Source: Octadecabacter arcticus 238
GTDB lineage: Bacteria; Pseudomonadota; Alphaproteobacteria; Rhodobacterales; Rhodobacteraceae
Direction: 5' to 3'
NCBI RefSeq assembly: GCF_000155735.2
Contig: NC_020908.1
Span: 3,787,001 to 3,851,000, forward strand
DNA: 64,000 nt
Shown here: one piece after another, positions 12,102-36,451 of the stretch
How positions within the stretch are numbered: position 1 is the stretch's first letter
Layout: each line of letters begins with the position of its first letter
Position numbers and translations under genes: made by a program
The notes under the pieces: model-generated
The model's database searches: none
Told to the model about the DNA's origin: nothing
Seen by the model: the letters and a program-made list of their open reading frames with translations, nothing else

Positions 12102-12901
12102 ATGCCGGGACGCCGCGTTATCGTCCACGCTGGCTTTCACAAGACCGCAACGACGTCGGCACAGAAATTTCTGCGCGCCAATGGCAAAAACATCTGGCCG
12201 CGCTGTTCACTGGTTTTGCCAGGCAAATTGCGCAAGGGTGCGGCGCTTATGGCGGTTCGGTATTCGCGCTACGGCAAACCCGCGCTGCTTGATGCGTTCG
12301 GCGAAGACCTGCACGGGACGCTGTCAAAGATAGATCAGAACAGCAGCCGCAAAGTCCTAATTTCGGACGAAAACATTGCAGGTCGGATGCCCGGTCGGGA
12401 TGGTCAGTTAAGCTACAACGCCACCCCCGCACTCATGGCGCGGGCTGAGGAGGTAATCTGCGATGTCTTTGGCACGGAATCCGGTGTCGTCTTTTATTTA
12501 CCACCCGCGATCCAGACTCGTGGCTCAAATCGACCTACAAACACAACCTGCGCACGTCACGCCTGACGATGGACGAGGCCACGTACACGGCCACCTACGC
12601 ACCCGCCGCCGATCTTGCAGGCGTCGCAAAGGCCGTGGCCGACGCGGTCACTGGCACCGTTCACACAGTCGATCTTCTTGATCTGACGGGACCAAATGGC
12701 CCTGCGCAGCCGTTAATCGACCTGATCGAATTGCCAGACTACCGACGACGCAAACTCGTCCCGCACCCTGTGGAAAACGCAGGACCGGACGATGGGCTTA
12801 TGGATGACCTTCTTGCGCTCAACCGATCAAACCTATCCGATGGCAACCTGAACGCAGCGAAGGCAGACTTGCTTGGAAAGGCACAAAACGATGACGGATA
12901 A
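12102..12901 (+). pseudogene. sulfotransferase-like gene with a single-base frameshift
   Basis: Two frames together give one protein of about 265 residues. Frame one runs from MPGRRVIVHAGFHKTATTSA, a PAPS 5'-phosphate loop of the sulfotransferase type, to GVVFYL. The other frame continues TTRDPDSWLKSTYKHNLRTS to the TAA at 12901. One base is missing in the T run near 12498-12499; adding it restores the expected LTTRDPDSW motif. The gene sits between rimM and trmD and overlaps the trmD start by 11 bases, so the lesion could alter ribosome flow into trmD. A sequencing error cannot be excluded. Confidence 0.75.
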
Positions 12902-13718
12902 ACCCGACGTTCCCCCAATCAAAGACCCAAAAAAGCAACCCAGCCGATCCATCGGACGCAAATCTGTGCAGGTCAGCGCACAGCCGCAAGAACTGATCAG
13001 CGACAGGGTCACATTGGCGCATGCTTGGACGGCGCAAGTCATCACCCTTTTTCCGGACGCATTTCCCGGATTGCTGGGCGAAAGTCTGACTGGAAAGGCG
13101 CTGAAAGACGGAATTTGGCAGCTACAAACCACCGACCTGCGCCGGTTCGGAGAGGGGAAACATCGCAACGTCGATGACACGCCTGCGGGCGGGGGCGCGG
13201 GCATGGTTTTACGGGCCGATGTCTTGGGTAATGCCATTGCCGACACCCGCCGCCGCGCCAAAGGGCGGATGCCGCTGATCTACCTGTCGCCGCGCGGGAT
13301 GCCCTTTACGCAGGCTATGGCGCAACAGTTTGCGGCGCAAGACGGTGTAACGTTGCTGTGCGGCCGGTTTGAGGGCGTGGATGAACGCGTTCTGGAGCAT
13401 TTCGAGGTCATGGAAGTGTCGATGGGGGATTACGTCCTGACCGGTGGCGAATTGCCCGCGATGACACTGATCGACGCCTGCGTGCGCCTGCTGCCCGGTG
13501 TGCTGGGCAACGCGGATTCCGCAGTAGAGGAAAGCCATTCCAACGGGTTGCTGGAACATCCGCAATACACGCGACCCGCCGAATGGGAAGGCCGCGTGAT
13601 ACCGCCGGTGCTGACGTCTGGGGATCACAAGAAAGTCGCGCAATGGCGCCGCGAGATGAGTGAGAAGCTGACGCAGGATCGGCGGCCAGATTTGTGGGCG
13701 AAAAAGACAGACGAATGA
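12891..13718 (+). CDS. trmD: tRNA (guanine-N1)-methyltransferase TrmD
   Basis: The 275-residue SPOUT enzyme methylates G37 of tRNAs that read CNN codons and prevents frameshifts. The knot and active-site segments are clear: DDTPAGGGAGMVLRADV, YLSPRGMPFTQ, LLCGRFEGVDERV, GDYVLTGGELPAM and the C-terminal EESHSNGLLEHPQYTRP. About 45 extra N-terminal residues precede the fold (AWTAQVITLFPDAFPG). The start at 12891 (MTDKPDVPP) is preferred to 12873. An IS30 element begins 15 bases after the stop, cutting it off from rplS. Confidence 0.96.
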   Translation: MTDKPDVPPIKDPKKQPSRSIGRKSVQVSAQPQELISDRVTLAHAWTAQVITLFPDAFPGLLGESLTGKALKDGIWQLQTTDLRRFGEGKHRNVDDTPAGGGAGMVLRADVLGNAIADTRRRAKGRMPLIYLSPRGMPFTQAMAQQFAAQDGVTLLCGRFEGVDERVLEHFEVMEVSMGDYVLTGGELPAMTLIDACVRLLPGVLGNADSAVEESHSNGLLEHPQYTRPAEWEGRVIPPVLTSGDHKKVAQWRREMSEKLTQDRRPDLWAKKTDE

Positions 13719-13736
13719 CGGCTAAGCGAGGTGATC

Positions 13737-14919
13737 TCAACCGGTCAACGCAACACATGCATTGAAACGCTCTGAGGGGTTTCGTATCCCAGCGTCATTC
13801 GTTGTCGTTCGTTGAGCTGTCTTGCGACGGCGCTCAGCTTTGCTTGACTGTGTATCGACAGATCTGTGCCCTTTGGAAAGTACTGTCACAGCAGGCGCTT
13901 TGTGTTTTCGTTTGAACCACGTTGCCATGGGCTGTGAGGCTCGCACAAATAGACGTCAATTTTGGTGGCCAAGGTGAACTTCTTGTGCCCAGCCATCTCC
14001 GTCCCGCGATCCCATGTCAGCGACTTATAAAGCTCTTTGGGCAACTTACGTGACTGCTTGATCAACGCTGTGACTGTCTTTGTTGCCAACCTTTGCCAGC
14101 ATCACGTAACGCGTGCTTCGCTCGACCAAAGTGGCGATAAAACTGTTTCCAGAGCCCGCTATCAAGTCTCCCTCCCAGTGCCCTGGTACAGCTCGATCTT
14201 CTAATTCTGCCGGTCTATCACGGATGGATACCGCATCATTGAAGCGGCCAACGCCGCTGCGCTTCATGGTCGCGTGACGAGACCGACGAATGGCTCGGGT
14301 TGCCCTCAGATGTGCTAGCAATTCCTTCTTAAGTGCGCCGCGTGTCTGGATAAACAGGCTTCTATAGATCGTCTCGTGCGAGATCCGCTTGTCTTCATCA
14401 TCAGGATGTTCACGCATCAGCCAGCCTGCGATTTGTTGCGGGGACCACTTACGGATCAGCTTGGCTGATATTGCCCCCTCTCACACATGCAAGCATGCGT
14501 TGCCGGGCAGTGGGCAGAGATAGACAGCCTGCCAGCTTACAGGGTTTGGGTCGGTGAGAACGGTCACACGCCGCCGTATCTGATGCTGCCGCACGATATT
14601 CTTTGACGCCTCCATTACGCCTGACTTCGCGGCCGATTGTAGACGTCGATCGCTTTAAGCTTCGCGCAATTGATCACAAGGACACCTGCGCCCGCAAGCC
14701 CCTCGATATCTCTTCTCGATCAGCCAGGGTCAGAGCAAGGCGCGATCTTATGCGCTCCAGTGGACGAATGCCGCCAGTGCGGGCAAGAAGGGGATAAATC
14801 GACGATGATCCGCGATCAAAGCCCCGCCTAATCGAGCTCATCGACTCTCCCCGTTGCCACCGATCCCAAATCTCCGACTTCTGCTTATCCGTGAAAAATA
14901 CGCGGCGACGATACTTCAT
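13737..14919 (-). pseudogene. IS30-family transposase, multiply frameshifted
   Basis: Fragments in different frames together cover an IS30 transposase. The N-terminal helix-turn-helix region is at 14674-14919 (MKYRRRVFFTDKQKSEIWDR). The middle part at 14046-14417 has SHETIYRSLFIQTRGALKKE and the first catalytic Asp in PGHWEGDL. The second Asp and third acidic residue are at 13886-14089 (LTWDRGTEMAGH, WQRGSNENT). The C-terminus ends in ERFNACVALTG. The reading frame changes at least three times, so no full transposase can be made. Confidence 0.85.
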
Positions 14920-15091
14920 GTTGATAACTCCATCTCTTCCTAAAGATTAAAGTGTGGCTCTTCTCCGCTTTGTTGAGTTATTCTAGGATTTCAAATAGAA
15001 CATATACTCCCGCGCCTGAATTGACCTGAGGTTTTCCCCTCAAATCACTTTGTATTCCTTGAGCGATATGACGCGGAAGTTGTCGGTGACG

Positions 15092-16179
15092 GCTTGGATT
15101 CAAACATCAAGTGCAACGGTTGATTTGAAGGCCGCGATTTCGTCGGCCATGGCTTCAGCGGGTGTTCTCCAACCGAGAGTTTTTCTCGGGCGGTTGTTCA
15201 TCAGGTTTGCAACGTCGTTCAGCCATGTTTGGCTTGCACCGTTCAGGTCAGTTCCTTTGGGCATGTACTGACGCAGCAGTCCGTTGGTGTTCTCGTTGCT
15301 GCCACGCTGCCAAGGCGCATGCGGATCGCAGAACCAGATATCGATCTTCAACCGTCTGGCGAGTTCGGGGTGGCAGGCCATTTCGGAGCCGCGGTCGTAG
15401 GTCATGCTCTTGCGCAAAGCAGCGGGTAGTCGTCTCATCTGGCGGGTGAAGCTGTCGAGCGCGGCCTCGGCCCCATTGCCGTCCATTTTGCAAAGAATGA
15501 CAAAGCGTGTCTTGCGCTCGACCAAGGTCCCCACTGACGAGCGATTGAATGCGCCCTTGATGAGGTCGCCCTCCCAATGGCCTGGTACCAGTCGCGCTTC
15601 GATCTCTTCAGGGCAATTGATAATGCGCAATGATTCCGGGACCATAGCACTGCCCGCCGCTGTCCTGCGCTTGAGCCCACGCTTAGGCTTCGCTTGACGC
15701 AACGCCTCGATCATCGCCGCCTTCAGCCCACCACGTGGCTGCGCGTAAATCGCGGCATAGATGGTCTCATGGCTTACATGGGCGGATGGATCATCAGGCT
15801 TCATGAGACGCAGTCTCTGCGCAATCTGCTCAGGCGACCAGTGCAGATGTACGAGCTTGCCATGAACAAAACGATAAAGATCGCTCCCCTCCACAAGCTT
15901 GCGCTCGCGGCGGCAGCGCGCACGCCGGGCATCATAGGCCTGCCGCGCCGCTTGCGGGCAATAGCTGCCGTCTTCCTGCCGACCTCGCGCCAGCTCACGG
16001 CAGATCGTGCTCGCCGGGCGATGCAAAAGCTGGCCGATCAACCGCTGACTGCTGCCCCTATTATGCTCGGCTAATATCACGCCACGGTCCTCGCTGCTGA
16101 GGTGCTTGCTTCGTATGTCCATCACAACATCCTATGCCCAAAGGGCTCTGAGTGTTGCATTTGAAACTTGAGCCTAAGC
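15092..16179 (-). mobile_element. IS30-family element, intact, nested in IS630 copy 1
   Basis: Imperfect 26-base terminal repeats share the pattern GCTT.G..TCAA...TCAA.TGCAAC. By comparison with the uninterrupted IS630 copy 2, a 2-base duplication (GG) was made at the target, normal for IS30. It is 1088 bases long with one transposase gene whose stop codon lies inside the end repeat. Confidence 0.9.
15100..16125 (-). CDS. IS30-family transposase (intact)
   Basis: This 341-residue transposase differs from the outer IS30 copy. The N-terminal helix-turn-helix (LSSEDRGVILAEHNRGSS) is followed by the zinc-rich-like basic region and a DDE core. The catalytic residues are Asp in VPGHWEGDLIKG, Asp in MTYDRGSEMA and Glu in WQRGSNENTNGLL. 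The C-terminus has the usual NNRPRKTLGWRTPAEAM. No frameshift or stop is present, so it could be active. The start may be ATG 16125 or 16122. Confidence 0.93.
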   Translation of the reverse strand: MMDIRSKHLSSEDRGVILAEHNRGSSQRLIGQLLHRPASTICRELARGRQEDGSYCPQAARQAYDARRARCRRERKLVEGSDLYRFVHGKLVHLHWSPEQIAQRLRLMKPDDPSAHVSHETIYAAIYAQPRGGLKAAMIEALRQAKPKRGLKRRTAAGSAMVPESLRIINCPEEIEARLVPGHWEGDLIKGAFNRSSVGTLVERKTRFVILCKMDGNGAEAALDSFTRQMRRLPAALRKSMTYDRGSEMACHPELARRLKIDIWFCDPHAPWQRGSNENTNGLLRQYMPKGTDLNGASQTWLNDVANLMNNRPRKTLGWRTPAEAMADEIAAFKSTVALDV

Positions 16180-16192
16180 GGTGTCGCGGAAC

Positions 16193-17630
16193 GGGAATGT
16201 CCCGAAGAATGTTGAAATTTTAATTTAGGGTGGCGTTGCTTCCCCTGAGCCGTAGGCTCTGGGTGTTTAATCGCAAAAGGAAGCAACACCATGAAGAAGA
16301 CTATCACAGCAAGCGCTGGACTTGCCAGCGCGTCGAATGTTCATCAACTCGTGGAAACAGCCTGGGACAAAGTTGGCGAGAGCTTCGAGCAGTTCTGCCT
16401 GACGGCGGGCGTCGCCAGTCTGGTTCAGATGTTTGGTGAGGACGCAGATACGCTGGCGGGTGGCCGATACGAGCATTGCACTGACAAGCCTGGCCACAGA
16501 TGGGGCACCGCGAAAGGTCAGGTTGGGTTCCATGGTGGGAAGATTGAGCTGGAGCGCGCCCGTGTGCGCGATAAAGTGACCGGTAAAGAGATTGTCCTGC
16601 CGAGCTGGGAAGAGGCCTCCTCGGGTGGCTTCCTTGAACAATGGGCAATGAGCCTAATGTTGATGAATGTTTCCACCCGTAAGTATGACCGAGCTGTACG
16701 GCTGCCCGAAGCGAAGGTGCCTAATAAGGCAGGGAGCGGGCTGTCCAGGTCAGCAGTTTCGCGTCGCTTCAAAGCACTCACCCAAGCGCGCCTGGATGAG
16801 TGGATGTCATCTGATCTATCGGAGCTTGACCTTGTAGCGATCCAGATCGACGGGCTGCATTTGGACGATCATTTGTTGGTGCTTGCGGCCGTGGGTGTGG
16901 AGGTTTCAGGCGAAAAGCACCCTCTGGGCGTCATTGAAGGGGCGACCGAGAACGCCGCGACGGTTCAGGCGCTTTTGGACAATCTGATAGAGCGTGGGCT
17001 CGATCCAGCGGGCTGCTATTTGTTCATCGTAGATGGGGCTAAGGCACTGACCAAGGCAATTCGGCGCACATTTGGTGCCGATATTCCCATCCAAAGATGC
17101 CAGATACACAAGGCCCGCAACATAACTGACAGGCTTCCTCCAAAGCTGCACGCCTCCGTACGCCGCGCGCTGAAGCAAGCATGGGAGCTTGATGATGCCG
17201 ACAAAGCCGAGCGGTTGATGCGGAATCTTGCCCAGCGACTAGAGCTTGAGGCTCCGGACGTTTCAAAGTCGATCCTTGAGGGCCTAGACGAAATTCTAAC
17301 TGTTGTTAGGTTGGGGCTACCTGTGGAATTGAGACGCTCATTGGCCAGCACCAACATCATTGAATCTATGAACAGCGTGATCCGACAGGTCTGTCGAAAC
17401 GTCAAACGCTGGCGCGATGCAAAAATGGCGCTGCGCTGGACAGGGGCTGGTATGCTGGAAGCCGCGAAAGGCTTCCGCCGCCTAAAGGCCTACAAGCAAC
17501 TCCCCATTCTCAAGCAAGCTTTGCTAGATCATCGCAATACCGTAACGCTTGACCAAATCAAGGACGTCGCCTAACCATCAATCAAGCAGCGCCACTCGCC
17601 CGATTTTCAACATCGTACGGGACATCCCCT
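16193..17630 (+). mobile_element. IS256-family element nested in IS630 copy 1
   Basis: Terminal repeats GGGAATGTCCCG (left) and, complemented, AGGGGATGTCCCG (right) bound 1438 bases. The 8-base duplication CGCGGAAC occurs at 16185-16192 and 17631-17638 and only once in the uninterrupted IS630 copy 2. This fixes both the boundaries and the insertion event. Confidence 0.93.
16291..17574 (+). CDS. IS256-family (Mutator-type) transposase
   Basis: The 427-residue transposase has the DDE triad of the Mutator group: Asp in VAIQIDGLHL, Asp in FIVDGAKAL and Glu in ASTNIIESMNSVIRQ. The C-x2-H motif in QRCQIHKARNI, typical of this family, lies between the second Asp and the Glu. The N-terminal half is helical with a zinc-free DNA-binding region. 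The gene is intact and starts about 98 bases inside the left end. Confidence 0.95.
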   Translation: MKKTITASAGLASASNVHQLVETAWDKVGESFEQFCLTAGVASLVQMFGEDADTLAGGRYEHCTDKPGHRWGTAKGQVGFHGGKIELERARVRDKVTGKEIVLPSWEEASSGGFLEQWAMSLMLMNVSTRKYDRAVRLPEAKVPNKAGSGLSRSAVSRRFKALTQARLDEWMSSDLSELDLVAIQIDGLHLDDHLLVLAAVGVEVSGEKHPLGVIEGATENAATVQALLDNLIERGLDPAGCYLFIVDGAKALTKAIRRTFGADIPIQRCQIHKARNITDRLPPKLHASVRRALKQAWELDDADKAERLMRNLAQRLELEAPDVSKSILEGLDEILTVVRLGLPVELRRSLASTNIIESMNSVIRQVCRNVKRWRDAKMALRWTGAGMLEAAKGFRRLKAYKQLPILKQALLDHRNTVTLDQIKDVA

Positions 17631-17643
17631 CGCGGAACTCTGG

Positions 17644-18642
17644 CTATTTTTCTGGCAGGGTCTTGCGGAAGAAGTCGAAAATGGCCTCTGTGAATTGGTT
17701 GAACGTTGCATAGTGCCGATTGTGGGTGACCCATTTGTGCATAACACCCCAAAGACGCTCGATCGGGTTGAGGTGCGGGGCATATGCTGGCAAGAAATGC
17801 AACTTCACCCGACGTTCTGGGCTGTCCAGCCATGGCTGTAGTATCTTGGCATGATGATAGCGGGCATTGTCGACAAAGACGTGGATGGCCGTCTTGGTTT
17901 GGTTGTTGCGTTCCAACTTTTCCAGCATCTGTCGGGTTGTCTGGGCATTGATCTTCTCGCCTTCCACAAAGGTGAACTGGAAAGTCTCAAGGTCAAGCGC
18001 GCCCTGAATGTTGAGCCGCTTGCGCCCTGATGTCGCCTTCAGGGCCGTCTTTTGTCCCTTGGGGAACCAACCATGGGCGGGGCGGCTCTGGTGTTCGGGG
18101 TGGACAGCGTCCGAAAAGACAACCATCTCATCTGCGGCCAACCCGTTCATCAGGGCCTCATATTTGGCAATAAACGCAGCCTGCTTGGCTTCATCGGCCT
18201 GTGCAGGCAGCAATTGTGGTTTCTTATACGCGAACCCCAGGCGGCGCATCAGCTTGGCGGCTCCCGACGTGCTGTAGTTTTGGTCGCACTCGGCTAGAAC
18301 ATAGGCACAGACCTCATCGGCATTGCGGGCAGGCTGCGCGGTGAAATGGGCTCTCACCACCTGCTCTTGCACGACGGACAAATGACCCTGACGCTGGCTG
18401 TAGTCCTTCAGACCGAAAAACGATAATCCCGCACCGGCAAAGGCAAATCGCCACTCCGTCAAAACTGTCGGGCCAATATCCAAAATCCGGCAAACCGTTC
18501 CGGCGTCTTCTCCTGCGTCCAAAAGAAGAAACGCGCGCGCCCGTTTCCAAACAAGGGCGTCAACTTTGCGGCGGCGGCAAAGCGCTTCAAGTGCTATGCG
18601 CTGCTCGTCGGATAAGGAGACTGTTTTGTATTGCTTGCTCAT
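17644..18642 (-). CDS. IS630-family transposase, copy 1 (C-terminal tail cut by a stop codon)
   Basis: The 332-residue protein starts MSKQYKTVSLSDEQRIALEA. It has two helix-turn-helix segments (about 20-130) and a DDE/DDD core with VFSDAVHPEH, HVFVDNARYHHAK and YAPHLNPIERLWG. After LPEK the gene has a TAG, and the same frame would continue PEFRDTVTDNFRVISL, the usual IS630 C-terminus. Copy 2 has the same TAG, so it predates both insertions. The IS256 insertion begins 14 bases after this stop, and the IS30 lies further downstream. Confidence 0.92.
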   Translation of the reverse strand: MSKQYKTVSLSDEQRIALEALCRRRKVDALVWKRARAFLLLDAGEDAGTVCRILDIGPTVLTEWRFAFAGAGLSFFGLKDYSQRQGHLSVVQEQVVRAHFTAQPARNADEVCAYVLAECDQNYSTSGAAKLMRRLGFAYKKPQLLPAQADEAKQAAFIAKYEALMNGLAADEMVVFSDAVHPEHQSRPAHGWFPKGQKTALKATSGRKRLNIQGALDLETFQFTFVEGEKINAQTTRQMLEKLERNNQTKTAIHVFVDNARYHHAKILQPWLDSPERRVKLHFLPAYAPHLNPIERLWGVMHKWVTHNRHYATFNQFTEAIFDFFRKTLPEK

Positions 18643-19813
18643 AAACTCAAAATACAGACTGAACCGCCTTTGGCCATGCTACGAAGTGAATCGCAGGCCC
18701 AAAATCGTCAGGTCAATTCAGGCGCAGGAGTATAGATTGATTATCTGGGATGGATGATTGTCTAATTTTGAGTTTGAAGTATTCGGTATCCCTGATGCCC
18801 CTGGCTCGTTTGCGGATCATTCCTATACTGACATTACCAGCCTCTATCCTGGCGCTTGTCAGCTTGTGTTTCGCGTAGTTGCATATGCCCACACAATGTT
18901 TTCTTAGGGATTTTGCGAACTTTTTCAGATAGAGCATGTGTGACTGATCTGCGATCAGGCACCAATTTTCCAGTTGCTCTGACATCCCCTCAAATGATGG
19001 GGCGCTCCACAGAGCCTGAAGCTGTTCTTTTAAGACGTAAAGCGTATTCAGGTTGCTATTGCTCTCCAGCAACGTTTGCAGCTTGTTACTTTGTTTTTCA
19101 TTCAACTTATCCGCATTTTTGAGCAACAGATAATGCGTGCCCTTCATCAACTCTTTACCACTTGGATCGGCCTTCCTGAACTCAAGGCGACGCTGATTAT
19201 GGATAGCCTTGCTGTAGTTTTTCATGACGTGGAAACGGTCAAATACGATGTCGGCCATCGGCAAGGACTCCCTGACAGCCTTTTGGTAGGCAGGCCCCAT
19301 ATCCATCGACACGGCCTTTATTTTATGGGCTGTATCTGGCCGCAGCTGTTTCAAAAACCTTGAAAAAACTTCGGCAGTTCGACCGGCTTCCACCCAGATC
19401 AGATGCCCTCCGACCATATCGTAGACCACCGTCATATAGTCATGACCTTTCGCCCGGGCCACTTCATCGACACCAATGTATTCCAAGCCAGCAAGCTGTG
19501 CGGGATCAAGCGCAGGGAGCGTTTCCATCAGGTATGCCTTGTCGATATTCTTTACCGTCTCCCATCGTATACCTAAATGCCTGGAGACAGCCAGAATGGA
19601 TAAATGACGGCACAATCCACTGATAAGATGGCAAAATCGATGGGTGAAACGGCACCCTTTTATCAACAAAAGGACACGCCTCAATGCGGCGCTCACCCTT
19701 GCTAATAAAAACCTGCGCTAGCTCAATCTCAATCACACAAGGATACCCAAAAAACGGGATGTCGTTTACTTGTCGGCGAATATGTTGGTTGATGCTACCC
19801 TTCTTGCCGGTTG

Positions 19814-20946
19814 TGAATAAGTTCAGATAGATGTGAGACAAAATTTTGTTGCCAAGATTTAGGCGACCTCGGAGACTGAGAATTGAAAGAAACCAGCTCA
19901 CGAGGCCAATATGCAAATCATCGGACTGCACAAGAACGTTTATAAACTTTATGCTTGGGCGCGGACACAAGAATGTTTGGACGTGTACCGTATCAAATAC
20001 GAAGGTCAGGTTCGGCAATGGGACGACTTACGTACAGAGGGCGTTTCTCTATCAAAGTGCGCTGAATTCGTCGGCATCTCGCGCGCGACATATTACCGTC
20101 ACAAGCGTATTTTGAAGGATTTGGCGCAGGCAATCATACCGCCTTCAAAGGCTCCCAAACGCTGCAACAAGTCACAGTGGGGCGAGGCAGAAAAGCAATT
20201 GGTGCTTGAGGCCCGCCGCGACAATGAAACCTACGGTAAGGAGAAAATAGGGGCCATCTTGCGTCGCGACAAAAAGCAAACCATGAGCGATAGCACCGTG
20301 GGGCGCATTTTGAGCTTTCTAAGGAAAAAAGGCCTGATCACACGATCAAGATCTGCGCCCCAAAAGCGCAAGCGTAATTTTTCCAAGGGGCATGCCAAGG
20401 GATGGAAATATAGGGATTACAAAGATATTGTGGTTGGCGAGCGTGTGCAGATCGATCATATGACTGCCACGAAGAACGGCGTCACGTGCAAACACTTTCA
20501 AGCCTGGGAGAGGTGTAGCAAGCATATCCACGCGCAAGTTTATTCGAATGCCACGGCACGCTCTGCCAAACGGTTTTTGCAAGAACTCGTGGAAATAGCT
20601 CCCTATAAGATCATCTCAATTCAAGTCGATGGCGGGTCTGAGTTTATGGCCGATTTTGAGACAGCGTGCGAACAGATGGAGATCCCGCTCATTGTGCTGC
20701 CGCCAGCAAGGCCAAAATACAACGGTGGTGTCGAGCGCGGTAACCGCACCTTCCGCGAAGAGTTCTATGCATGTCGTGATCTCATTGCCGACAGCATAGG
20801 AGCGATGCGGTTTGAACTTCGAAAAGCCGTCGATAAATACAACACATTCAGGCCTCATCATGCCTTGAAAGGCAAGACACCAATGGAGTAAATTCGAATC
20901 ACTCAGGCCAAAGTCGTGTGAGTCTCAAAACACCTGAACCTATACA
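19814..20946 (+). mobile_element. IS481-like element nested in ISL3 copy 1
   Basis: Ends TGAATAAGTTCAG..TGTGAGAC (left) and, complemented, TGTATAGGTTCAG..TTTGAGAC (right) define 1133 bases. The flanks carry CCGGTTG: once at the left junction and as a tandem GTTGCCG repeat at the right (20947-20964), so the exact target duplication is ambiguous. The uninterrupted site is seen in ISL3 copy 2 near 34130. Confidence 0.85.
19911..20891 (+). CDS. rve-domain transposase of the IS481-like group
   Basis: The 326-residue protein has an N-terminal helix-turn-helix (SLSKCAEFVGISRATYYRHK) and an integrase core with Asp in ERVQIDHMTATK, Asp in SIQVDGGSEFM and Glu in NGGVERGNRTFREEF. The C-terminus reads HHALKGKTPME and stops at TAA. 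In the same frame IRITQAKVV then TGA follows, so a Tyr codon has probably become a stop, removing about ten residues after the catalytic core. Activity may be kept. IS481 versus a related integrase-like family is not settled. Confidence 0.82.
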   Translation: MQIIGLHKNVYKLYAWARTQECLDVYRIKYEGQVRQWDDLRTEGVSLSKCAEFVGISRATYYRHKRILKDLAQAIIPPSKAPKRCNKSQWGEAEKQLVLEARRDNETYGKEKIGAILRRDKKQTMSDSTVGRILSFLRKKGLITRSRSAPQKRKRNFSKGHAKGWKYRDYKDIVVGERVQIDHMTATKNGVTCKHFQAWERCSKHIHAQVYSNATARSAKRFLQELVEIAPYKIISIQVDGGSEFMADFETACEQMEIPLIVLPPARPKYNGGVERGNRTFREEFYACRDLIADSIGAMRFELRKAVDKYNTFRPHHALKGKTPME

Positions 20947-21372
20947 GTTGCCGGTTGCCGGTTGCAGGGTCTATAGCGCTCCTGCGGGCATCCCGACTGC
21001 ACTGAACAATAACCTTCGCACCGTCTTCAGCCAGCTCAATTTCATTTACACGTTGCCCCTTCAGGCGTAAAATATGTTGCGAGATGTGGATGGTCATATA
21101 CCTGCCCTATGTAAAGTTGTCAGAAACCTAACATATCAATAGGTTACTTGATGGTCGGCATCTTTTCTTACTCAACAAAGCGGAGAAGATCCTAAAGTGT
21201 TGCGTCAACCATTTGAAATCGCAGGACAAAACCGACCTAAGAGACTGCGGCACCAAAGGCAGCTTATTTGGAGACAGTTGCTCCGGATAGGTCTGGTCTC
21301 TTAGTGCTGCCTCGTGTCCCGAACCGGCATGAGGTCCGGCTTGGAAGATTATATTTGAAGCCAAAAGCGGGA

Positions 21373-21996
21373 CTAAGTAACTGCACGTTCAGCAGCGGCT
21401 TGAGGCACTGTCAGAGGTTGATCTGGGACCTGCATGACCTCTGGATCGTAGGGTTTGCGCGCGAACACGTCTCGTACCATAGGCGCAAAAAATGAGAGCG
21501 GTAACGTGTCATAGTCTGGGTCAAAACTGGTCTGGTCCCACCGTTCACAGAATTCCGCACAGTCGTCGAAATACTTCGCACCCCGATGACGTTCACGCTT
21601 GTTCTGATCGAATCCTTCCAGATGTTGCCCATAATATAGCATCTGAAAATCACCATGAGTTTCGACGCACCAACGGCATTGCTCGCGCACAAACGGCTTC
21701 AAGATAGTCGCGGCATATTCATCATGATTGTACGGTGCAAAAATATCCCCAATGTCATGCAAAAGAGTAGATACGACCCAATCGATGTCCGCCCCGTCGC
21801 GCCAAGCGCGGGTCGCAGCTTGCGCCGAATGCCCTAAGCGGGTGATTTGATATCCTGAAAGGCCTTCATCAAGATGCTCAAGAGCATGCATCAATCGGTC
21901 CGCGGTACCTTTGGTATAGTCGATCTCGTGAGCCGTCAGGAATTCATATTCTTCCTTCGTGCCATCTTTCATCTGGGTGAAATTCACACGTTCCAT
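21373..21996 (-). CDS. HD-domain phosphohydrolase/oxygenase-like protein (PhnZ/COG4341 type)
   Basis: The 207-residue protein has the metal pattern of HD-domain di-iron enzymes: His in TRLGHSAQAA, His-Asp in STLLHDIGD, His in YNHDEYAATIL, His in CVETHGDFQ and a late Asp in WDQTSFDP. The layout resembles predicted HD hydrolases that include the phosphonate oxygenase PhnZ and inositol oxygenase, rather than nucleotide HD enzymes. The substrate is unknown. The start at 21996 (MERVNFTQMK) is preferred to 22104. It is a single gene stranded between the IS nest and rplS. Confidence 0.78.
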   Translation of the reverse strand: MERVNFTQMKDGTKEEYEFLTAHEIDYTKGTADRLMHALEHLDEGLSGYQITRLGHSAQAATRAWRDGADIDWVVSTLLHDIGDIFAPYNHDEYAATILKPFVREQCRWCVETHGDFQMLYYGQHLEGFDQNKRERHRGAKYFDDCAEFCERWDQTSFDPDYDTLPLSFFAPMVRDVFARKPYDPEVMQVPDQPLTVPQAAAERAVT

Positions 21997-22436
21997 GTTC
22001 CGCCTCCAAAGTGCATATAGATATTCGATTGAATTATCAGTTTTACGGGCGGTCCAAAAGAGCGGCGATAAGAAATGTCTTGTCGTGTTAACAAATTGGG
22101 TCAAGCAAACCCTTGTTGAAGCCTAAAGCTGATATTCGCTACATCGCAGAAATCGGTAGAGTAGGCTCTTTGCGGACATTGACGCAGTCACGTCCCAATC
22201 CCCCTTGCCCAAAACACCTCTCCCGCCTATACGCTGCAGTGTCTGCGACCCTTATGAGTCGTAGACCTGTTTGGTATGACTCCGACCTCTTCACCGGAAA
22301 CCCGCCAGACGGCAAAGCACGGCCGTTAAACCTCCGGTGGGCGCCCCGTATCAAAGCGGTATTTGACCCAATGAAGACCGAAGCTCTGGCAGCCCTCACA
22401 TCCGCGGAAAACCGCGTGACTATTTAGGAGACGATC
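21997..22436. other. 440-base gap with promoters for the HD gene and for rplS
   Basis: No convincing gene is present. Because the IS nest cuts rplS off from trmD, a promoter for rplS-rpmE must lie here. Just before rplS a small hairpin CCGCGG-AAAA-CCGCG (22402-22416) lies ten bases upstream of AGGAG (22426-22430), which could hide or present the start site. A GC-rich stretch near 22310-22350 may also fold. Confidence 0.5.
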
Positions 22437-31180: not shown

Positions 31181-31217
31181 GGGTTCAGGATCAGTGATGG
31201 ACCTGAACCCTTGTTTT
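31181..31217 (+). terminator. terminator of tpa
   Basis: GGGTTCAGG and CCTGAACCC form a nine-base-pair stem around 12 bases and are followed by TTGTTTTG. Confidence 0.7.
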
Positions 31218-31260
31218 GCGTCAGGCTGGGGCAACCATTTCAAGATCAAAGGTTTTTAGT

Positions 31261-31814
31261 ATGCTCCGGTCCCTCCTTGTTGCACTGACTTTCATCATTG
31301 CCCTCCCCGTCGCAACGCCAGCTTGGGCGCAAGACAACTGCGAGTATGCCGGCGATAACGAATGTGACGAGGCCCAGTACGGTGGCCAAGGATATTGTGA
31401 CGCGGGCACCGACACCGCCGACTGTTCATTGCTCAGCCAAGGAATACGCGACGACAGTTGCGTCTTTGCCAACGACAAAGAATGTGACGAATTCCGCTAC
31501 AATGGCACTGGGTCATGTCAGGACGGTTTAGACACCAGTGATTGCGCCGCTGAGCAGATCACCCGCGAAAGCGACTTTTTGGATCGCGCACGCGGCCTGC
31601 TTCTGGCAGAAAACACGATCCTGAATTTGGGCAACAACACCTGCCGCTGGAATAATGACGGCGAATGTGACGACGTGACCTTTGGCGGCACAGTCTTTTG
31701 CGACGTCGGCACGGACGCCACCGATTGCCGCGCCATGGCTTTGGGCGGCGAAGACAGCTGTCGTTGGGCCAATGACAACGAATGTGACGAACCCGGCATC
31801 GGCACCGACAATTG
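31261..31814 (+). pseudogene. secreted trypsin-like protease, N-terminal fragment (interrupted by ISL3)
   Basis: The fragment begins with a signal peptide (MLRSLLVALTFIIALPVATP, then AWAQ). Four cysteine-rich modules of about 30 residues follow, each of the form C-x5-D-x-E-C-D-x7-G-x2-C-x2-GTD-x2-DC; the fourth is cut after GTDN. Joining the sequence at 31814 to 35584, which removes ISL3 and one copy of the duplication GACAATTG, restores the frame and the missing cysteine. The whole ancestral protein would have 473 residues. The original reading frame now runs into the ISL3 end and stops within about 10 codons. Confidence 0.88.
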
Positions 31815-31863
31815 GGCTCTTCTCCGCTTTGTTGAGTTATTCTAGGATTTCAAATAGAACATA

Positions 31864-33055
31864 TACTTCTGCGCCTGAATTGACCTGACGATTTTGGGCC
31901 TGCGATTCACTTCGTCGCATGGCCAAAGGCGGTTCAGTCTGTATTTTGAGTTTATGAGCAAGCAATACAAAACAGTCTCCTTATCCGACGAGCAGCGCAT
32001 AGCACTTGAAGCGCTTTGCCGCCGCCGCAAAGTTGACGCCCTTGTTTGGAAACGGGCGCGCGCGTTTCTTCTTTTGGACGCAGGAGAAGACGCCGGAACG
32101 GTTTGCCGGATTTTGGATATTGGCCCGACAGTTTTGACGGAGTGGCGATTTGCCTTTGCCGGTGCGGGACTATCGTTTTTCGGTCTGAAGGACTACAGCC
32201 AGCGTCAGGGTCATTTGTCCGTCGTGCAAGAGCAGGCGGTGAGAGCCCATTTCACCGCGCAGCCTGCCCGCAATGCCGATGAGGTCTGTGCCTATGTTCT
32301 AGCCGAGTGCGACCAAAACTACAGCACGTCGGGAGCCGCCAAGCTGATGCGCCGCCTGGGGTTCGCGTATAAGAAACCACAATTGCTGCCTGCACAGGCC
32401 GATGAAGCCAAGCAGGCTGCGTTTATTGCCAAATATGAGGCCCTGATGAACGGGTTGGCCGCAGATGAGATGGTTGTCTTTTCGGACGCTGTCCACCCCG
32501 AACACCAGAGCCGCCCCGCCCATGGTTGGTTCCCCAAGGGACAAAAGACGGCCCTGAAGGCGACATCAGGGCGCAAGCGGCTCAACATTCAGGGCGCGCT
32601 TGACCTTGAGACTTTCCAGTTCACCTTTGTGGAAGGCGAGAAGATCAATGCCCAGACAACCCGACAGATGCTGGAAAAGTTGGAACGCAACAACCAAACC
32701 AAGACGGCCATCCACGTCTTTGTCGACAATGCCCGCTATCATCATGCCAAGATACTACAGCCATGGCTGGACAGCCCAGAACGTCGGGTGAAGTTGCATT
32801 TCTTGCCAGCATATGCCCCGCACCTCAACCCGATCGAGCGTCTTTGGGGTGTTATGCACAAATGGGTCACCCACAATCGGCACTATGCAACGTTCAACCA
32901 ATTCACAGAGGCCATTTTCGACTTCTTCCGCAAGACCCTGCCAGAAAAATAGCCAGAGTTCCGCGACACCGTCACCGACAACTTCCGCGTCATATCGCTC
33001 AAGGAAAACAAAGTGATTTGAGGGGAAAACCTCAGGTCAATTCAGGCGCGGGAGT
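31864..33055 (+). mobile_element. IS630-family element, copy 2
   Basis: 1192 bases with ends TACTTCTGCGCCTGAATTGA and the near complement (..GGCGCGGGAGTA), bounded by TA. It sits at the same TA of ISL3 as copy 1 but in the opposite orientation. Confidence 0.93.
31954..32952 (+). CDS. IS630-family transposase, copy 2 (C-terminal tail cut by a stop codon)
   Basis: The 332-residue protein is almost identical to copy 1 (one visible change, Ala for Val in VVQEQAVRAHF) and has the same DDE residues (VFSDAVHPEH, FVDNARYHH, NPIERLWG). It has the same TAG after LPEK; the frame would run 22 more residues, PEFRDTVTDNFRVISLKENK and VI, before TGA. Unlike copy 1, this downstream tail is not interrupted. 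The start at 31954 is chosen over 31894, which lies in the terminal region. Confidence 0.93.
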   Translation: MSKQYKTVSLSDEQRIALEALCRRRKVDALVWKRARAFLLLDAGEDAGTVCRILDIGPTVLTEWRFAFAGAGLSFFGLKDYSQRQGHLSVVQEQAVRAHFTAQPARNADEVCAYVLAECDQNYSTSGAAKLMRRLGFAYKKPQLLPAQADEAKQAAFIAKYEALMNGLAADEMVVFSDAVHPEHQSRPAHGWFPKGQKTALKATSGRKRLNIQGALDLETFQFTFVEGEKINAQTTRQMLEKLERNNQTKTAIHVFVDNARYHHAKILQPWLDSPERRVKLHFLPAYAPHLNPIERLWGVMHKWVTHNRHYATFNQFTEAIFDFFRKTLPEK

Positions 33056-34269
33056 ATAGATTGATTATCTGGGATGGATGATTGTCTAATTTTGAGTTTG
33101 AAGTATTCGGTATCCCTGATGCCCCTGGCTCGTTTGCGGATCATTCCTATACTGACATTACCAGCCTCTATCCTGGCGCTTGTCAGCTTGTGTTTCGCGT
33201 AGTTGCATATGCCCACACAATGTTTTCTTAGGGATTTTGCGAACTTTTTCAGATAGAGCATGTGTGACTGATCTGCGATCAGGCACCAATTTTCCAGTTG
33301 CTCTGACATCCCCTCAAATGATGGGGCGCTCCACAGAGCCTGAAGCTGTTCTTTTAAGACGTAAAGCGTATTCAGGTTGCTATTGCTCTCCAGCAACGTT
33401 TGCAGCTTGTTACTTTGTTTTTCATTCAACTTATCCGCATTTTTGAGCAACAGATAATGCGTGCCCTTCATCAACTCTTTACCACTTTGATCGGCCTTCC
33501 TGAACTCAAGGCGACGCTGATTATGGATAGCCTTGCTGTAGTTTTTCATGACGTGGAAACGGTCAAATACGATGTCGGCCATCGGCAAGGACTCCCTGAC
33601 AGCCTTTTGGTAGGCAGGCCCCATATCCATCGACACGGCCTTTATTTTATGGGCTGTATCTGGCCGCAGCTGTTTCAAAAACCTTGAAAAAACTTCGGCA
33701 GTTCGACCGGCTTCCACCCAGATCAGATGCCCTCCGACCATATCGTAGACCACCGTCATATAGTCATGACCTTTCGCCCGGGCCACTTCATCGACACCAA
33801 TGTATTCCAAGCCAGCAAGCTGTGCGGGATCAAGCGCAGGAAGCGTTTCCATCAGGTATGCCTTGTCGATATTCTTTACCGTCTCCCATCGTATACCTAA
33901 ATGCCTGGAGACAGCCAGAATGGATAAATGACGGCACAATCCACTGATAAGATGGCAAAATCGATGGGTGAAACGGCACCCTTTATCAACAAAAGGACAC
34001 GCCTCAATGCGGCGCTCACCCTTGCTAATAAAAACCTGCGCTAGCTCAATCTCAATCACACAAGGATACCCAAAAAACGGGATGTCGTTTACTTGTCGGC
34101 GAATATGTTGGTTGATGCTACCCTTCTTGCCGGTTGCAGGGTCTATAGCGCTCCTGCGGGCATCCCGACTGCACTGAACAATAACCTTCGCACCGTCTTC
34201 AGCCAGCTCAATTTCATTTACACGTTGCCCCTTCAGGCGTAAAAGATGTTGCGAGATGTCGATGGTCAT
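33037..34269 (-). CDS. ISL3-family transposase, copy 2 (last codons replaced by IS630 sequence)
   Basis: The 410-residue transposase starts MTIDISQHLLRLKGQRVNEI. A short zinc/helix-turn-helix N-terminal part precedes the core with Asp in GLEYIGVDEVARAKGHDY, Asp in IKAVSMDMGPAY and a late Glu in the C-terminal helices. IS630 inserted after IPDNQS, so the natural end (FYLKS, readable across the junction) is swapped for ILPRLN. IS1595 inserted 11 bases upstream of the ATG, removing the native 5' signals. The coding core is intact, but expression is doubtful. Confidence 0.9.
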   Translation of the reverse strand: MTIDISQHLLRLKGQRVNEIELAEDGAKVIVQCSRDARRSAIDPATGKKGSINQHIRRQVNDIPFFGYPCVIEIELAQVFISKGERRIEACPFVDKGCRFTHRFCHLISGLCRHLSILAVSRHLGIRWETVKNIDKAYLMETLPALDPAQLAGLEYIGVDEVARAKGHDYMTVVYDMVGGHLIWVEAGRTAEVFSRFLKQLRPDTAHKIKAVSMDMGPAYQKAVRESLPMADIVFDRFHVMKNYSKAIHNQRRLEFRKADQSGKELMKGTHYLLLKNADKLNEKQSNKLQTLLESNSNLNTLYVLKEQLQALWSAPSFEGMSEQLENWCLIADQSHMLYLKKFAKSLRKHCVGICNYAKHKLTSARIEAGNVSIGMIRKRARGIRDTEYFKLKIRQSSIPDNQSILPRLN

Positions 34270-34279
34270 ATACCTGCCC

Positions 34280-35482
34280 AAGGCTTATCCCTTTTAGTCC
34301 GGTTGCCCCACATGTTGACGCGGCGCAGAATCTTGCCCTTGTGGCTTTAGAGGCGGATCGGATCAGTTTGTAACGTCTGGTGGGTTTATAGGGCGTGGCT
34401 TTTGCCGTGAACGAGGCCCTTCAGGCGCGCTGTTCAACAAAATCACGATATGTCGCTGGCCCGAGACCAACACCGATCCCCAGCAGCGTGTCGAAGGCGC
34501 TTCGCATGTGTCGCCGTCGGTTCCAGCGGAACACGAATTCGTCGAGATAGCGTTGTAGATGGCACTTTCTGAGGCCGTGGAAGACGCCTTTTGCCCACGT
34601 TTTTAGGTTGGAGAACACGCGGTGGACCCAGTGGAGTATGTCGTGTGCCTTCTTGCCGCTGACGACCTTTGCCTCATGCGTGTTTGCAGGAGGATTTTCG
34701 TAACCGAGCCAGCCATCCGTGATGATGTGAGCGCCAGGCTCTACAGCCTGACCAATGAACCCGTGCAGCGTCTTTGACGCGCCGTCGGGAATGTGTTTCA
34801 TCCTGATACGGCGCGGATGTCCGTCACTTGATAACTCGACGGCACAGACGACAAACATCTTTCCAACCGGGCTCCGCCCACCCTTTGGCCGGTCCTCGGG
34901 ATCATGCCGGGACCGGAACGGCATCTCTGTTTCATCGATTTCGACAAGGTCTTTCAGGGGGTTGCGGTCAGGGTTGACCATCGACCGCCGCAGCTTTTGC
35001 AAGAGGAGGTCGCCGAGAAGCGCCATCGGTCCGAGCGACGATGGCGACCCGTCTTGTAGCTGCCAAGGCCAAGTTGCGCCTGAAGTTGCAGCGCTGACAT
35101 GCCGTTGGAATGGCTGGTGATGATGTGCGCGGCAAGAAACCAAATTCGCAACGGCAAATGGCTGCTGTGCATTACCGTGCCAGCCGTCACGGATGTCTGC
35201 CGTGCGCAACCGGCACATTCCCAAGTCGCGCGATTTCGCTTTAACGGCCAGCCCTTGCAGGTGCCACAGGAAGGACAGACGAAGCCCTCAGGCCAACGAT
35301 GTTCCACCAGATAATGCGAACACGCTTCCTCATCAGAAAACCTGGCGTCGAACGCGGGGCGGGACATGGGTTTGTCGTTTTTCCATCTGGCTGGCATGGG
35401 AAGAACAATACCAGAACATTCTAGATTGGCAAGCCGCTTCGCACTACATCAGGTGCCGCCGGAGCAAAGGGGATAAGCCTTT
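34280..35482 (-). mobile_element. IS1595-family element nested in ISL3 copy 2
   Basis: Ends AAGGCTTATCCCTTTTAGTC and, complemented, AAAGGCTTATCCCCTTTGCT bound 1203 bases. The 8-base duplication ACCTGCCC occurs at 34272-34279 and 35483-35490 and once in ISL3 copy 1. Confidence 0.92.
34421..35397 (-). pseudogene. IS1595-family transposase with frameshift
   Basis: The N-terminal part (35397 down to about 35065) has the zinc ribbon CPSCGTCKGWPLKRNRATWE..CAGC and the helix-turn-helix up to LQAQLGLGSYKT. The C-terminal part in another frame has the ISXO2-like DDE core: VEIDETEMPFRSR, HIITDGWLGYENP and HRVFSNLKTWAKGVFHGLR. The shift lies near 35020-35065, where an inverted repeat CGCCATCG/CGATGGCG adds bases not expected between SYKT and LLLQKLRR. 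A programmed frameshift is possible but not usual for this family. Confidence 0.82.
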
Positions 35483-35583
35483 ACCTGCCCTATGAAAAGT
35501 TGTCAGAAACCTAACATATCAATAGGTTACTTGATGGTCGGCATCTTTTCTTACTCAACAAAGCGGAGAAGAGCCGACAATTG

Positions 35584-36451
35584 CACCTCCGGCACGGATG
35601 TGACCGATTGTGCCGCTGTGGCCTATCTGCGCAACCGCACCGACACCTGCGCCACCGCCTTTGACGGTATTTGCAACGAAGCCTCTGGCGGCAGCGGCAC
35701 ATGTGAGCCGTTTTCGGACACCGCTGACTGCCTGGGCCGTTCGCGTCCAGCCGGTCTGGAAAACCATTTCTTTGGCCGCGACGACCGCTTCTTGGTCGAT
35801 GTTACACAATCACCTTGGCGCTCTATCGGCTCACTTACTTTGCAGGACGGCACCTGCACGGGGACGCTTGTGGGCCCGGCTCTGGTCCTGACGGCGGCGC
35901 ATTGTGTCACAGATACTGGCAATGAAACGCTCACACCTGTCAGCTTTTCAGCGGGTCTGTCGTTGGGCAATTCACAAGGCGACGCCAAGGTCATCGGCGC
36001 GGTCTTTGATCCCTCCTACTCTCCGGAAACCCAGCCTGCGGGCGGTGGCAATGGCCACGACTGGGCGCTGGTCGTTCTGGATCGTAACCTTGGGGATGAG
36101 GTCGGCTATCTTGAAGTCCACGAACTCACCGCTGCGAACCTGTCACAAATCGGACGCTCCGGTCTGCTGGTCAATCAGGCTGGCTATTCTTGGGACACGG
36201 GCGACAATATGTCGGGCAACCAAGGCTGCCGCATCGTGCAGGCGTTTGAAGACAATTCGATCCTGCACGAATGTGACACGGCCCAAGGCGACAGTGGATC
36301 ACCGTTCTTGCTTAACGTGGATGGTGAATGGAAAATCATCGCGGTCGACAGCCAATTCTTCAGTGCGGATGACGATAAAACTCCGTTTGCGCAGTCCAAC
36401 CTCGCAGTGGACAGCCGCGCGTTTGCCGCAGCCGTCGCGCAACAGCAATAA
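35584..36451 (+). pseudogene. trypsin-like protease, C-terminal fragment
   Basis: This is the 3' part of the protease gene broken at 31814. It holds the end of module four, a fifth cysteine-rich module (DTCATAFDGICNEASGGSGT) and the S1 protease domain. The catalytic His is in LTAAHCVTD, the Asp in HDWALVVLD and the Ser in TAQGDSGSPFLLN. An open frame from ISL3 sequence runs into it, but it lacks a signal peptide and would not be exported. Catalytic residues are all kept, so the disruption looks recent. Confidence 0.88.

Follow-up and report, generated by a model that had tools for sequence, protein, structure and literature searches.

A four-level nest of six insertion sequences between trmD and rplS of Octadecabacter arcticus 238

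The sea-ice bacterium Octadecabacter arcticus 238 has a 5.2 Mb chromosome and plasmids of 118 and 160 kb (PMC3646047). With 1076 insertion sequences (IS) and a coverage of 21.02%, it is the most IS-rich among the genomes compared in PMC9208149, where the clustering of IS is reported as non-random. Table 3 of PMC3646047 counts 39 ISL3, 83 IS630, 36 IS481, 93 IS256, 62 IS30 and 34 IS1595 elements. The hot spots described in section 8 of PMC9208149 are places where several IS families gather and resident IS serve as targets.

Here we describe a nest of six IS, four levels deep, at positions 13731-21222 of a 64,000-bp window of this genome (the window is the whole stretch of DNA analysed; plain coordinates refer to it). 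The assembly comprises 5,478,249 bp in three contigs (5,200,279, 118,287 and 159,683 bp). The locus resembles the published hot spots in that several families have gathered at one place with resident IS as their targets; unlike the general account given in that section, the layers of the nest can be resolved to the base through target duplications and through closure of lengths against a clean copy. The main text of PMC3646047 makes no use of the word 'nested', PMC9208149 has it only in one reference title, and in the text searched neither paper describes the nest. No published description was found in a literature search that covers few subscription journals. A plasmid collection contained no record with the nest, the best matches being single elements at 74-85%.

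Anatomy of the nest

Situated between trmD (12873-13718) and rplS, the L19 gene (22437-22823), the nest is real and cleanly resolved. A decayed IS30 (level 1) contains an ISL3 element, ISL3-1 (level 2); ISL3-1 contains both IS630-1 and an IS481-like element (level 3); and IS630-1 contains a second IS30 and an IS256 (level 4). All six elements and their nesting had been recognised in the original prediction, whose limits (13733-21220) are extended slightly by the alignments. Family labels were assigned by NCBIfam models scoring above their cut-offs: NF033550 for ISL3 (ISL3-1, 268 bits; the comparison copy ISL3-2, 302 bits; cut-off 180), NF033545 for IS630 (190.9 bits; cut-off 100), NF033563 for the inner IS30 (294.6 bits; cut-off 80) and NF033543 for IS256 (232.9 bits; cut-off 150). 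The exception is the 'IS481-like' element, so named because its best model, NF033577 (E 4.9e-47, 160.8 bits), scores below the cut-off of 224. The transposase of the outer IS30 is fragmented; 14046-14417 matches NF033563 (96.2 bits; cut-off 80), and a transposase model search with the fragment 14674-14919 gave no match.

Clear target duplications flank five of the six elements, the outer IS30 being the exception. The predicted duplications of ISL3-1 (TAAAGTGT) and of IS630-1 (TA) were recovered as matching flank repeats; the copy of TAAAGTGT at 14948-14955 forms part of the left piece of the outer IS30. Duplications of the two level-4 elements had also been predicted correctly but too short: GG at the inner IS30 extends to CGG, and the eight bases CGCGGAAC at IS256 belong to the 9-mer TCGCGGAAC. 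The 4-bp duplication of the IS481-like element had been overlooked, as had the IS1595 in ISL3-2 and the TA shared by the IS630 insertions of the two ISL3 copies.

The lengths close exactly, the predicted length of the clean IS630 (1192 bp) being one base too short. Removal of both inserts, each with one copy of its duplication, gives 3728 - (1086+3) - (1437+9) = 1193, the length of IS630-2, and the comparison with 31815-35575 that the prediction had proposed aligns the emptied IS630-1 with IS630-2 at 5 mismatches and no gap. The site occupied by IS630-1 is found unoccupied, as GAACATAGATTG, in other ISL3 copies of the same genome. Both level-4 inserts lie 3' of the IS630-1 stop codon, in a non-coding tail of 104 nt, and the transposase frame (17644-18642, 332 aa) is intact. 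Among the fetched loci, a biased sample, this tail received four of the seven insertions into IS630 that were seen (IS630 ~1095-1131; window 15090-15092 and 16184-16192; L080; L200). At another locus, L069, an IS30 lies inside a second copy of the same IS30.

Table 1. Coordinates of the nest elements and of the comparison copy of ISL3
Feature	Position	Strand	Remarks
Window	G000:C1:3787001-3851000		
Outer IS30, left part, decayed (level 1)	13731..14955	-	76% identical to best relative L143 over whole part
Outer IS30, right end, beyond ISL3	21193..21222	-	both pieces aligned with L143; ends GTGATCTCAA / GCGATTTCAA
ISL3-1 (level 2), interrupted twice	14956..21192	-	duplication TAAAGTGT at 14948-14955 and 21193-21200; NF033550
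IS630-1 (level 3), 3728 bp including two inserts	15005..18732	-	TA at 15003-15004 and 18733-18734
IS481-like element (level 3), 1133 bp	19814..20946	+	326-aa frame intact; GTTG at 19810-19813 and 20947-20950
Inner IS30 (level 4), 1086 bp	15093..16178	-	341-aa frame intact; CGG at 15090-15092 and 16179-16181
IS256 (level 4), 1437 bp	16193..17629	+	427-aa frame intact; TCGCGGAAC at 16184-16192 and 17630-17638
ISL3-2, comparison copy	31815..35575	-	duplication GACAATTG
IS630-2, clean, 1193 bp	31864..33056	+	same ISL3 TA as IS630-1, opposite orientation
IS1595 in ISL3-2	34280..35481	-	TACCTGCCC at 34271-34279 and 35482-35490

The duplications are typical of their families and not due to chance; sister copies elsewhere in the genome share the lengths seen in the nest, with IS256 off by one base. 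The counts below take in the copies of the window itself wherever the lists of loci contained them. A duplication of 8 bp is typical of the ISL3 family. ISL3 sister copies are 1355 or 1362 bp long with 8-bp duplications; in the 18 uninterrupted copies the repeat matches at 8/8 positions in 13 and at 7/8 in one, is absent from three, and the ends of one were not found. The inverted ends of ISL3 measure 23 bp, with one mismatch in ISL3-1. TA stands on both sides of 28 of 29 IS630 copies (one locus of 30 was skipped for length). For IS30 and IS256 the family tests used expected lengths of 2-3 bp and 8-9 bp. The 30 IS30 copies fetched, including that of the window, have an exact 3-bp duplication in 20 cases and none in seven, the script finding no ends in the other three; twelve IS256 copies have 8 bp in eight cases, 9 in the window and 7, 3 and 0 in the others. 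An exact 4-bp duplication accompanies 16 of 25 IS481-like copies, that of the window included, and two were not found. The IS481-like element entered a run of TTGCCGG 7-mers, of which other ISL3 copies hold two (L018, L019, L020 and L027) or one (the six others shown). Given the 4-bp duplication, the site in ISL3-1 would have held three, a number seen in no other ISL3 copy.

Order and age of the layers

The claim that the order of events is fixed did not survive, since containment settles 11 of the 15 pairwise orders. Four pairs are left unordered by the nesting: the IS481-like element against IS630, against the inner IS30 and against IS256, and the inner IS30 against IS256, the duplications of these last two (16179-16181 and 16184-16192) standing two bases apart with no overlap. 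A complete order was accordingly rejected. Containment, moreover, orders the insertions into each host element and not the arrivals at the nest locus.

The prediction had further proposed that the layers could be dated relative to each other. This holds for an old outer IS30 with younger elements inside; dating layers 2-4 by divergence does not work. On sequence comparison, only the outermost layer is measurably older: within the genome it reaches no more than 76% identity, with L143, its ends match each other but have diverged, and decayed relatives also occur in the genome G006. ISL3-1 has two private changes, one substitution among the copies compared and one base at its right end that is absent from all 56 end matches, which come from 32 other loci; its one-base frameshift is common to L203. 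A comparison of 31 copies leaves IS630-1 with one private substitution; the inner IS30 has two, at which all 28 others differ. IS256 and the IS481-like element have none, being identical to five of 11 other near-full copies and to three of 24 others, respectively. Private substitutions were therefore rejected as a clock: they number 0-2 per layer against the nearest sister copies and do not follow depth, so that no dating is claimed and containment is the sole clock for layers 2-4.

None of the 18 other genomes of the genus that were searched yielded ISL3 or a close IS630 copy; for IS630, two of them gave short weak matches. Layers 2 and 3 thus probably date from the lineage of O. arcticus 238. 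Nests of this kind supply a relative order of transposition where divergence cannot. A single nest gives a partial order only; with about 1000 IS in the genome, all nests together could yield a graph of which element landed in which, and from it the sequence of IS expansions.

Origin of the nest

We consider it very probable that the nest is a neutral by-product of ordinary transposition in an IS-flooded genome. Between trmD and rplS, an old IS30 would have occupied the edge of a small foreign segment or a place close to it. ISL3 would then have inserted into it and would itself have received IS630, at a TA, and the IS481-like element, after which the non-coding tail of IS630 would have received IS30 and IS256. 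Each insertion in layers 2-4 would have been a separate event at this locus, leaving the target duplication typical of its family. Since IS DNA is dispensable, insertions into it would be retained more often than elsewhere and nests would enlarge; relaxed selection would then be the reason that nests accumulate. The containment, the duplications and the exact closure are direct observations.

The surroundings of the outer IS30 bear on how the nest began. On the left, homology to G017, the nearest genome of the genus (TrmD identity 98%), extends up to 13728; it returns at 22160, G017 having 524 other bp between these points and no IS between trmD and rplS. The right flank (21224-22177) begins two bases past the outer IS30, matches Antarcticimicrobium sediminis (L218) at 90% and is missing at the corresponding place in G017. 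It encodes a 243-aa frame with no Pfam match, relatives of which have neither trmD nor L19 nearby in any of 89 other loci (flanks of up to 10 kb). Because its two flanks match different sources, the outer IS30 sits at a junction of backbone and a probably acquired segment. Its arrival together with that segment is one possibility; loss of the original flank through an adjacent deletion is another. The trmD-rplS interval varies among the relatives examined. Intermediates with fewer layers, which the prediction had suggested seeking in related strains, were not found among 16 other genus genomes with a TrmD match, not all of which were followed to L19. No empty site of the outer IS30 was found in relatives either, the other genus loci often having no flank that reaches L19.

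ISL3 is a frequent target of other IS. In the ISL3 survey (41 matches from 40 of 54 candidates scored), 34 copies were recognised: 18 uninterrupted, 13 interrupted and three truncated. Thus 13 of 31 full-length copies among the matches scored hold 21 direct insertions, where the genome-average density (1076 IS) would give 8.3 (Poisson P 1.4e-4). In addition, 1076 elements of 1070 bp were inserted in simulation into 4.33 Mb, with IS DNA fully tolerant (400 runs). At 100, 50, 25 and 12% tolerant non-IS DNA, the mean number of nests at least four levels deep was 0.48, 2.45, 9.0 and 26, and genomes with at least one depth-4, six-element nest made up 4, 37, 98 and 100% of the runs. Where part of the genome is intolerant, which is the usual case, such a nest is therefore expected; where IS make up about a fifth of the genome, it is ordinary and no surprise.

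Several points weigh against this account. If non-IS DNA is uniformly tolerant, a depth-4 nest of at least six elements arises in only 4% of simulations. The expectation of 8.3 insertions rests on the published IS count and on a Poisson model that takes no account of how old each copy is. Finally, no clean target duplication was recognised at the outer IS30 (at best AG, with no exact repeat of 3 bp) and its flanks match different sources, so that the first step is not established as a simple insertion.

As another explanation, the inner layers might have arrived as compounds, IS630 moving as a unit with IS30 and IS256, or ISL3 with IS630. This is mechanically possible, because the two ends of IS630-1 are still present and its transposase is undamaged, the inserts lying downstream of the stop codon. 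We regard it as unlikely: no second copy of a compound was seen among the matches fetched (30 of 42 for IS30 and 30 of 40 full matches for IS630, with many candidates unscored). All 33 IS256 candidates were scored and gave 21 matches, of which one besides that of the nest lies inside an IS630, at a different site (L097); an IS30 copy (L080) lies inside another IS630 about three bases from the site used in the nest. An assembly artefact is very improbable. Layers 2-4 consist of repeats of 99-100% identity in many copies, a type prone to wrong joins, but the expected duplication is present at every junction of these layers, which a wrong join would not create, and, according to PMC3646047, manual editing and PCR were used to finish the genome.

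The shared TA raises a related question. The IS630 of both window ISL3 copies stand at ISL3 48-49 (window 15003-18734 and 31862-33058), in opposite orientations; in all, IS630 was seen to have entered ISL3 four times, at 48-49 twice, at 402-403 and at 1033-1034. A single event might account for the pair if transposition or gene conversion copied one ISL3 with its IS630 to the other ISL3 and IS630 was later inverted between its ends of 33 bp; the two copies, 17 kb apart, share the identical TA. With 68 TAs in ISL3, the probability that four insertions share one is 0.087 if all are equal, which is not small. Against one event stand the opposite orientations, the different variant sets of the two ISL3 copies, and five differences between the IS630 copies, with the IS630-1 variants at 307 and 374 recurring in other genome copies and not in IS630-2. 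We judge it improbable, slightly more so than compound arrival. Independent hits are the probable origin of the two insertions, as the IS630 copies fall in different variant groups and the ISL3 copies do likewise.

Insertions into ISL3 and further repeats

The 21 insertions into ISL3 comprise four IS630, four IS1595, three IS66, three of a second IS256 type and two IS200/IS605, and one each of the IS481-like element, a second ISL3 type, ISAs1, IS5 and an unnamed 1169-bp element. The second ISL3 type is a different element of the same family (L192:2169-3651; NF033550, 343.7 bits) inside an ISL3 copy. Within 11 bp near the end of the transposase gene (ISL3 41-51), four copies have been struck, by IS630 twice in opposite orientations, by IS1595 and by IS66 (P 0.009 under uniform placement, in a post hoc test); IS1595 has inserted twice at ISL3 1262-1270. 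This raises the tentative and rather doubtful suggestion that ISL3 carries insertion hot spots, at 41-51 and 1262-1270, common to unrelated IS families. Were they true target-site hot spots, nests would grow along preferred sites instead of randomly and ISL3 would act as a landing pad for other IS.

The two IS1595 insertions at 1262-1270 have the same orientation and are found in ISL3-2, where the IS1595 transposase scores 133.4 bits with NF033547 (cut-off 75), and in L195 (L195:4751-5949), 0.47 Mb apart. Movement of ISL3 and IS1595 as a unit is disfavoured, the two ISL3 copies differing in their variant sets.

The outer IS30 contains a dispersed repeat of ~32-43 nt (14474-14515), copies of which occur at 81-97% elsewhere in the genome and also in G006, G017 and G002; it is possibly a seventh, small inserted element. 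Folding of the repeat showed no sign of a hairpin (z 0.61). The window has 12 occurrences of the motif GGCAGGCGAT against 8.06 expected, which is no enrichment. ISL3-2, for its part, interrupts a gene (31216-31845 and 35492-36451), the second part of which matches trypsin.

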